Part shown: positions 55,102 to 57,620 of the stretch, in pieces
How positions within the stretch are numbered: position 1 is the first letter of the stretch
Layout of the letters: every line of letters begins with the position of its first letter
From: Anaerolineae bacterium
Lineage (GTDB): Bacteria; Chloroflexota; Anaerolineae; Promineifilales; Promineifilaceae
Assembly (NCBI GenBank): GCA_023954475.1
Contig: JAMLHW010000009.1
Location: 1 to 64,000 of the forward strand
Direction: 5' to 3'
DNA: 64,000 bases
The notes under the pieces: model-generated
What the model saw: only the letters and a program-made list of their open reading frames with translations
Told to the model about the DNA's origin: nothing
Database searches by the model: none
Program-made: the position numbers and the translations under genes

Positions 55102-55674
55102 ATGTTTTCACAACTTCTCAGTCGCATTCGCCGCAATCACGGCCTGGAACACGCTACTATCCACATGCTTAGCAAGCGGCACAGCGGCTTTAGCGCACAA
55201 GGTAACTCCAATCATCGCGGTTTTTATCTCAACATCTTCGGTAACATCAGTGAAGACGCCGTTCGCGCCGCCGTTCAGGAAGCATTCGACCGCTTGAAAA
55301 ACGGCGAATCAGAGTTAGCGGTGCATCCCAACTGCGGCACTGTGCTGCTGACAACGGCAACCATGACGACATTGGCTGCACAAGCTGCGTTTGCCGCAGA
55401 AGGTATGCGCCAAAAACGCACCAATCTCGACCCGATGCTGCTGGCGAGTGCGCTACCCAACGCCATTCTGGCGGCGGTGGTGGCGCTGATCATTTCGCGT
55501 CCGGTCGGTCTCTATCTGCAAAGAACCTACACAACGGAGGGTGATCTGGGCGACATGGAGATTGTGCGCGTGAGCCAAATTCGGCCGACGTTGGTTACGC
55601 GGATTTTCCAGGTGCTGTTGGCACAGCCCAATCGCAACACCGCCAACTCCTATTTCATTGAGACCATGGGCTAA
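55102..55674 (+). CDS. DUF6391 family protein
   Basis: A 190-residue protein. Its N-terminal motif RNHGLEHATIHML (near 13-25) is the mark of DUF6391; the HxxxH pattern could bind metal. A Ser/Gly segment and CGTVLLTTATMTTLAAQAAF follow, then one or two membrane helices (LLASALPNAILAAVVALII near 113-131). RBS is GAGGAG. Function is unknown. It lies between a phosphatase and an ExoVII-like gene on the same strand. Confidence 0.75.
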   Translation: MFSQLLSRIRRNHGLEHATIHMLSKRHSGFSAQGNSNHRGFYLNIFGNISEDAVRAAVQEAFDRLKNGESELAVHPNCGTVLLTTATMTTLAAQAAFAAEGMRQKRTNLDPMLLASALPNAILAAVVALIISRPVGLYLQRTYTTEGDLGDMEIVRVSQIRPTLVTRIFQVLLAQPNRNTANSYFIETMG

Positions 55675-55702
55675 ACGGCAGCCCGAGTTATTGTCTCGTC
55701 AA

Positions 55703-56659
55703 ATGGCCGACATTCACACACCCAGAACAATGATGGCGGTTTTCGCCAATGCGTTTCGTCTCGATTCGGAAACCTCCATTTTCCTGATTCAGGGCATTTT
55801 TCGGAACCAGAATCGAAGCGCCTACGGTAATTATTACTACGATCGTTTACGAGATGCCGCCACCGGGACAATCATCCGGATAAAACTTCCAGCCAGCATA
55901 AAACAGCAGCTCAGAGATGGTGATGTCTACACATTCAAAGGCATCATCGACAAAAGTGTGCGTGATGATGGCGTGATCGAACCGCTATTTATTGTGGTTG
56001 AGCTTCAAAATGATGTGACTGTAGACAATCAGCAGTCAGAAGCCATCGAGCGCGGATTAGCCCTTCAACGGCGCAAAGCCAATGCCGGTTTTCAGGATGT
56101 CGACAACACATTGCAGAGCAAACTGCGTCGCGGCATCAAACCACATCTCATCGTGATTCACGGCTCAACCAGTGAGGCCGTTGCCGACATAAAGGCTGCA
56201 CTCAACGACGCAGCCGCCAGTTACCGCCTCGATTGGTGTGCTATCAACATTACGGACCGTGACACCATTGTCAGCACGTTTACTGAGTTGCGCTCCAGTT
56301 CGGCCGATGCGATTGCCATTACGCGTGGAGGTGGGCTGGCACTTGAAATCTTTGATGATTTGCGTATTGCAGAAGCGGCTTTGCTCATCAAATCACCGTT
56401 GATCACGGCGATGGGCCACGCACGAGATGAAACTCTGCTGCAAAAGCTGGCTGACAAAGGGTTGGAAACACCGACAGCGCTAGGCAACTATCTGCGCTTG
56501 TGCGTCTCGGAAAGTCAACTCCAACAATTTGTGCCAGTTGTTTCGGCCGAAAAATCGACCTCTGCCTCTTCCAAGTCATCACAATCCTGGTGGTGGCTGA
56601 TCTTCGCCGTAGTCGTGACCCTGGCTATCGGCATTGTAATCGGCATGTATCTGCTGTAA
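55703..56659 (+). CDS. Membrane-anchored protein related to exonuclease VII large subunit
   Basis: A 318-residue protein that resembles the central part of XseA. An OB-like domain fills about residues 8-102. The catalytic-domain blocks then appear as KPHLIVIHGSTSEAV near 147, AIAITRGGGLALEIFDD near 203-219, SPLITAMGHARDETLLQKLAD near 231-251 and ETPTALGNYL near 255. The long coiled coil of normal XseA, which binds XseB, is missing. Instead a Ser-rich linker and one membrane helix (LIFAVVVTLAIGIVIGMYLL, 299-318) end the protein. No xseB is nearby. ATG 55703 is used because the upstream extension needs a TTG. Stop and holA start are 4 bp apart. Confidence 0.75.
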   Translation: MADIHTPRTMMAVFANAFRLDSETSIFLIQGIFRNQNRSAYGNYYYDRLRDAATGTIIRIKLPASIKQQLRDGDVYTFKGIIDKSVRDDGVIEPLFIVVELQNDVTVDNQQSEAIERGLALQRRKANAGFQDVDNTLQSKLRRGIKPHLIVIHGSTSEAVADIKAALNDAAASYRLDWCAINITDRDTIVSTFTELRSSSADAIAITRGGGLALEIFDDLRIAEAALLIKSPLITAMGHARDETLLQKLADKGLETPTALGNYLRLCVSESQLQQFVPVVSAEKSTSASSKSSQSWWWLIFAVVVTLAIGIVIGMYLL

Positions 56660-56663
56660 TCCC

Positions 56664-57620
56664 ATGTTTTACCTATTCCACGGCGACAACGCCCACGCGC
56701 AACAAGAAGCGCTCGCCATACTCCAGGCTAAATCAGGCGATGCGGACATGCTCGCGCTGAATACGACACGCCTCGACGGCAAAGGATTGTCGCTGAACAC
56801 GATTCGCAACACCAGCAGCGCCATGCCGTTCCTCTCACCAGTGCGTCTGGTCATCGTCGAGGATTATTTTGCCGGTAAACCGGCAAAAGAAGACGTCAAA
56901 GCGCTGGTCGACTGGTTGCCAACGATACCCCAATTTACACGGCTCGTTTTCCTCGAATCAAAGGCACTGCGTGCATCACATGCCGTACTAAAATTAGCTC
57001 GTGAAAAGGGTTCCAACGGTTACGAACGCGCCTATGACTTGCCGAAAGGTGGTCAACTCGACCGCTGGATTATGCAGCGGACGCAGGAAAAAGGGGCTGA
57101 GATCGCGCCACGTGCTGCCAATGTGCTGGCAACCAATGTGGGCAGCGATTTGTTTATACTCGACAATGAAATCGAGAAACTGGTTTTGTATCGCAATGGG
57201 CAAACAATTCGGCCGATTGACGTAGAAAAGCTGTCACCCTATGTCGCCGAAGCCAATATCTTCGACTTGGTCGACGCGTTAGGCAATCGCAATGGCCGCC
57301 AAGCAGCGCAATTGTTTCAGCACACACTTGACGACGGCATGGATCCATTCTATCTGTTTGCGATGTTTGTGCGTCAATTCAGGCTGCTGATTCAAGTCAA
57401 AGAATCGGCCGAAGCCGGGCTGCGACCGCCCGACATTGCCAAAGCACTCAAGCAACATCCCTTCGTCGTCGGCAAACTGTATCAGCAGGCAAAAAGCTTC
57501 TCAATAGCGCAACTGGAACAAATCTACGCGCACCTGCTCGATATCGACGTCCAGGTTAAAACAGGCAAGAGCGACATGACGACTTCACTCAGCTTGCTGG
57601 TTGCTGGACTCGCTGATTGA
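56664..57620 (+). CDS. holA: DNA polymerase III subunit delta
   Basis: A 318-residue clamp-loader subunit. The start MFYLFHGDNAHAQQEAL is the usual Walker-like N-terminus without a working P-loop. SPVRLVIVEDYF is near 60, and the C-terminal domain has QLFQHTLDDGMDPFYLFAMFVRQFRLLIQVKE near 215-245 and DIDVQVKTGKSDMTTSLSLLV at the end. It opens the sliding clamp at replication. It is coupled to the ExoVII-like gene upstream. Confidence 0.92.
   Translation: MFYLFHGDNAHAQQEALAILQAKSGDADMLALNTTRLDGKGLSLNTIRNTSSAMPFLSPVRLVIVEDYFAGKPAKEDVKALVDWLPTIPQFTRLVFLESKALRASHAVLKLAREKGSNGYERAYDLPKGGQLDRWIMQRTQEKGAEIAPRAANVLATNVGSDLFILDNEIEKLVLYRNGQTIRPIDVEKLSPYVAEANIFDLVDALGNRNGRQAAQLFQHTLDDGMDPFYLFAMFVRQFRLLIQVKESAEAGLRPPDIAKALKQHPFVVGKLYQQAKSFSIAQLEQIYAHLLDIDVQVKTGKSDMTTSLSLLVAGLAD

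Follow-up and report, generated by a model that had tools for sequence, protein, structure and literature searches.

The 64,000-nucleotide stretch of Anaerolineae DNA analysed here (hereafter the window) encodes a 318-residue protein that joins the core of the exonuclease VII large subunit, XseA, to a predicted C-terminal membrane helix. Its membership of the XseA-core family and its anatomy are well supported, and its active site is apparently intact as judged by alignment; its nuclease activity, substrate, topology and role are what we infer. With a probability of about one half, we take it to be a horizontally acquired, XseB-independent, tail-anchored single-stranded DNA (ssDNA) exonuclease that belongs to a mobile branch of the family and would act at the membrane surface. 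The protein is a real variant of a known enzyme family in a housekeeping locus, undescribed as far as searchable papers show. Exonuclease VII degrades ssDNA and requires both of its subunits, and it has so far been treated as a single soluble XseA-XseB complex of DNA repair. The window comprises positions 1-64,000, forward strand, of contig JAMLHW010000009.1 from assembly GCA_023954475.1, whose GTDB lineage is Chloroflexota; Anaerolineae; Promineifilales; Promineifilaceae.

An XseA core with a predicted membrane tail

The XseA-like open reading frame lies on the + strand (55703..56659), with an ATG start at 55703, a stop codon ending at 56659 and an intact frame of 318 codons. Pfam Exonuc_VII_L (PF02601) matched its product with 53.0 bits (E 4.7e-14), passing the cut-off of 35.9, and this match covers residues 165-279 of the longer open frame and only positions 18-138 of the 315 in the profile. 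NCBIfam xseA (TIGR00237) matched with 56.1 bits (E 3.4e-15), which does not reach the 180-bit equivalog cut-off. The catalytic core, delimited by the Pfam match and alignment columns, occupies 56148..56494 (+) and includes D162, R208, H239, D242 and the TPT motif. Pfam's OB domain did not match the window protein on its own. When the protein and its relatives were combined into a family profile, the profile aligned to residues 6-272 of E. coli XseA (8txr; E 5.3e-19), a stretch that takes in the OB-fold; the corresponding N-terminal region lies at 55730..56050 (+), limits being approximate. The first-pass annotation, made from the DNA letters, had described this protein as keeping RGGG, GHxxDE-like and TPTA blocks while losing the coiled coil that binds XseB and gaining a membrane helix, and each of these points was borne out. 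The blocks are present as RGGG, GHARDE and TPTA, and both the XseB-binding coiled coil and the C-terminal XseA domain (for the domain layout, see PMC5684230) are absent, with 41 residues following the core.

The window protein ends in IFAVVVTLAIGIVIGMYLL at its extreme C-terminus. Its last 19 residues have a mean Kyte-Doolittle hydropathy of 2.72, and AlphaFold placed a helix at residues 295-316 (pLDDT about 82-85) within an otherwise poor model; the predicted tail anchor thus delimited by hydropathy and model is encoded at 56597..56656 (+). No such C-terminal hydrophobic tail occurs in any of the 58 canonical-set XseAs. Lysines and serines stand before the hydrophobic segment, an arrangement that would suit a cytoplasmic N-terminal part and a tail anchor. 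We infer this topology from hydropathy and the poor AlphaFold model. Two structure predictions were made, for the XseA-like and DUF6391 proteins, and both were poor (mean pLDDT 43.6 and 41.2, respectively). The former, computed from two input sequences, found 8txr as its best match in the PDB (E 1.1e-3, TM 0.18), which lends weak support to an XseA fold.

The locus between DUF6391 and holA

The XseA-like gene is flanked on the same strand by a DUF6391 membrane protein gene (55102..55674, +; PF19928, E 2.3e-39), which ends 28 bp upstream, and by holA, encoding the DNA polymerase III delta subunit (56664..57620, +; TIGR01128, E 1.4e-72), which begins after 4 bp, as had been noted before. The DUF6391 protein carries a hydrophobic segment at residues 113-131 (mean hydropathy 2.41), in agreement with its earlier description as membrane-bound. 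The shared strand, the short gaps and this hydrophobic segment are what one would expect if the XseA-like protein were part of a housekeeping DUF6391-XseA-holA operon working at a membrane replication fork, and a functional link to both neighbours had been suggested by the first-pass annotation. Gene order in relatives strongly disfavours such an operon. Of 59 relatives, 53 contain DUF6391, in a single copy per genome, and holA follows it directly on the same strand at 26 of the 29 other loci inspected, with gaps of -13 to 232 bp and no XseA-like gene; the distance is 989 bp in the window because the XseA-like gene lies between the two. DUF6391 and holA are therefore a conserved, tightly spaced pair in the class, into which the XseA-like gene is inserted in one genome only. 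The gene was also absent from the 55 other genomes of the order that were searched at E 1e-30. The operon was rejected on synteny, and we consider a housekeeping role of this kind very improbable.

Wider searches gave a similarly narrow distribution. Direct protein search of 58 relatives retrieved ordinary XseA only, with the exception of one genome (G057), and a profile scan of genome contigs with a two-sequence alignment returned the G057 record only. Across 400 Chloroflexota genomes, the short anchored form was found only in the source genome and G057, and renewed searches of 19 genomes with double matches yielded normal XseA only. The source genome itself encodes a complete XseA of 451 aa on another contig (C6); the gene is immediately followed by the only xseB of the genome. 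This separate pair, whose presence the first-pass annotation had proposed to check, indicates that the window gene is an addition and not the housekeeping enzyme.

Occurrence in one genome together with insertion into the DUF6391-holA pair supports acquisition from outside. Among nine neighbouring genes, the XseA-like gene has the lowest GC (0.508), GC3 and local codon fit, which agrees weakly with acquisition. No convincing flanking repeats were detected around the insertion, and an Rfam search gave no match.

The DUF6391-holA pairing links a membrane protein with the clamp-loader delta subunit. Common to the DUF6391 proteins are an invariant HxxEH close to the N-terminus and, further on, HPxCGT. 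In a profile-profile comparison with LuxS, HxxEH fell on HxxEH and CGT on CGx (71 columns, probability 45%, E 2.3e-4); the control comparison, with the XseA family, gave a probability of 0.1%. Pfam LuxS weakly matched five of 20 DUF6391 members, and nothing usable came from the DUF6391 structure model. From these similarities, DUF6391 could be a LuxS-like metal protein anchored in the membrane; the papers searched do not mention DUF6391.

Relatives on plasmids and the conservation of the active site

Plasmid and phage collections, searched at the protein level, contained relatives of the window protein on three Thermus thermophilus plasmids (one of the proteins being WP_202819410.1), Allomeiothermus silvanus pMESIL02 (WP_013159873.1), a Prevotella plasmid (WP_237827823.1), a Bacteroides ovatus plasmid (WP_032845083.1) and one human-gut contig. 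The plasmid relatives carry the plain annotation 'exodeoxyribonuclease VII large subunit'. They share the layout of the window protein, including the C-terminal helix in complete copies. Identity to the window protein is about 22-26% for the four proteins with accessions given above and about 22-29% over the relatives as a whole. All complete members end in a hydrophobic helix at most three residues from the C-terminus, with the Meiothermus protein being borderline. The linker that precedes this helix is of variable length, about 20 to 200 residues, and may take the form of a long coiled coil. The Bacteroides ovatus copy is shortened. An xseB is absent from all seven records that carry the accessory gene. 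The first-pass annotation had known of no described counterpart; this held for the literature searched, in which we found no description of such an anchored accessory XseA, but not for sequence collections, given these same-layout homologues on Thermus, Meiothermus, Prevotella and Bacteroides plasmids. The association with plasmids is partly search bias, because the sensitive profile search covered chromosomes of this phylum only. Profile scans of viral contigs gave no match, and no PADLOC model matched the XseA-like protein at E up to 1.

Phylogenetic analysis placed the window protein with the Thermus, Meiothermus, Prevotella, Bacteroides and gut-contig proteins in one accessory XseA clade (bootstrap/SH-aLRT 100/99). 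The tree also held 28 other XseA rows, all of them outside this clade; one badly cut row (L051) was left out. An HMM of the accessory clade built without the window protein gave the latter 184 bits, compared with 46 bits on the canonical HMM, while canonical XseAs score at most 67 bits on the accessory HMM. These results bear on whether the gene could have arisen by degradation of the xseA of its host and chance gain of a hydrophobic tail. That such a derivation is possible is shown by a protein from another Anaerolineae MAG (L006/L064; JAUZRW010000223.1, 69-992), which has an XseA core, a C-terminal membrane helix and no coiled coil, scores 213 bits on the canonical and 68 on the accessory HMM, and branches with canonical XseA, so that it probably reached the same layout independently. 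The window protein shows the opposite preference and clusters with the plasmid clade, apart from its own genome's XseA. Both the tree and the HMM built without the window protein refute the degraded-copy explanation, which we regard as hardly credible.

The condition of the relatives is relevant to another alternative, namely that the gene came in recently as a selfish element or cargo, has no role in this host and is decaying. Occurrence in a single genome would fit this, as would the fact that two of the three Thermus plasmid copies are broken (L067 5911-6888 and L071 5740-6660), one by a frameshift beyond the core, the other by loss of the N-terminal domain. On the other hand, the window frame is intact over its 318 codons with the catalytic residues all kept, and the Thermus pair (dN 0.18, dS 0.48) is under purifying selection, with dN/dS < 1. 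Taken together, we think decay of a functionless import unlikely.

The catalytic set of XseA, said to go back to Poleszak in 2012, reportedly comprises D155, R205, H238 and D241 (E. coli numbering). We aligned the window protein, the accessory relatives, E. coli XseA and 57 XseAs of Chloroflexota, and found that all four residues are kept in the window protein as D162, R208, H239 and D242; the Asp/Arg/His set that the first-pass annotation had asked for in a structural model is thus present by alignment, the model being poor. Apart from one gap, canonical XseA shows no variation in the D155, R205, G206-G208, H238 and D241 columns, and the equivalents of D155, R205 and H238 are kept in all nine family rows. 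In E. coli XseA, D155A abolishes function and serves as a catalytic mutant, while F63A is a DNA-binding mutant (PMC11077951); the title of the 8txr structure is ExoVII(H238A). The Bacteroidota accessory members have E at position 241 and one Thermus member has N; because D241 varies across the family, nuclease activity may differ among members. Nearly all canonical rows have F or W at position 63, and this aromatic is lost in the accessory clade, where the window protein has K or P, depending on the alignment. The changes at D241 and the loss of F/W63 suggest that some accessory members may not cut DNA.

The same changes could point to a catalytically inactive or weak protein that binds ssDNA at the membrane and holds plasmid or chromosomal DNA there, perhaps during partition or replication. 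This possibility gains from one Thermus copy, on a plasmid of 12.9 kb and six genes, that is preceded by genes for ParA and a ribbon-helix-helix protein. It loses from the invariance of D155, R205, GGG and H238 in all members, which binding alone would not demand, from the retention of D241 in the window protein and from the occurrence of ParA neighbours in only one of seven records. We therefore view a pure binder as improbable. Other neighbours of the relatives encode nucleases (PDDEXK_4 twice, one REase-ARP and one SNase, across three records). These neighbours vary from member to member, indicating that there is no conserved defence partner. The nuclease and ParA neighbours favour conflict or plasmid-linked roles, without settling which.

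On the human-gut contig, which is filed as 'Bacteriophage sp.' (L070 3253-6943), the anchored XseA-like gene is followed by genes for nucleases of the PDDEXK_4 and REase-ARP/PDDEXK_13 types. The contig resembles a defence island of Bacteroidales more than a phage.

Proposed role and comparison with known exonuclease VII

If the window protein is the tail-anchored exonuclease that we favour, its OB-like domain and catalytic core would be cytoplasmic, with a single C-terminal helix in the inner membrane. So anchored, the enzyme would trim or destroy ssDNA that enters by transformation, conjugation or phage, or that is exposed on membrane-associated replicons. ComEC is the channel for entering ssDNA, and the genome encodes it, although it is a common gene. 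Defence or plasmid competition would be a possible purpose. The membrane tail may stand in for the restraint otherwise provided by XseB and the XseA C-terminus. Such restraint would be needed because free excess XseA is toxic, as stated in a passage of PMC11077951 that cites Jung 2015.

A shortened anchored form on mobile elements would extend exonuclease VII from DNA repair to DNA entry or mobile-element conflict, and it would allow a direct test of the purpose of XseB and the XseA C-terminus. Such genes are now annotated as ordinary xseA and have hence been overlooked. More generally, XseB-free tail-anchored XseAs might constitute a distinct mobile class that guards against incoming ssDNA, in which the tail replaces XseB and whose layout evolved repeatedly, in bacteria as well as archaea; we regard this broader proposal as tentative and rather doubtful.

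Membrane tails occur in XseA proteins of several kinds. The Anaerolineae MAG protein described above resembles the window protein in anatomy but belongs to a different branch. Among haloarchaeal plasmid XseAs, a C-terminal membrane helix was present in all five checked, from Halorussus, Natrinema, Halanaeroarchaeum, Natronosalvus and Halosegnis (the set comprising loci L116 2389-3626, L117 1501-2738, L118 1501-2737, L119 1429-2864 and L120 1354-3000). In contrast to the window protein, these have a core of canonical type (for Halorussus, 257 bits on the canonical HMM), and an xseB is annotated directly downstream of each, so that an exonuclease VII of two subunits anchored in the membrane may be the usual form on haloarchaeal plasmids. 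A Rhodococcus plasmid XseA-like protein (L115 2335-3765) has two hydrophobic segments after the core and forms its own deep branch; its record contains no xseB. The haloarchaeal and Rhodococcus proteins take an intermediate place in the tree, with the accessory clade on one side and unanchored canonical XseAs on the other; the branches are long and their order is uncertain.

Compared with canonical XseA (TIGR00237, 8txr), the window protein follows the same order, from OB-fold to catalytic core, and differs in what comes within and after it. The canonical RGGGSxEDLW is replaced by the shorter RGGGLALEIFD, and the XseB-binding coiled coil and C-terminal domain are missing. Where canonical XseA continues into these parts, the window protein ends in its predicted membrane helix, and its gene has no adjoining xseB.
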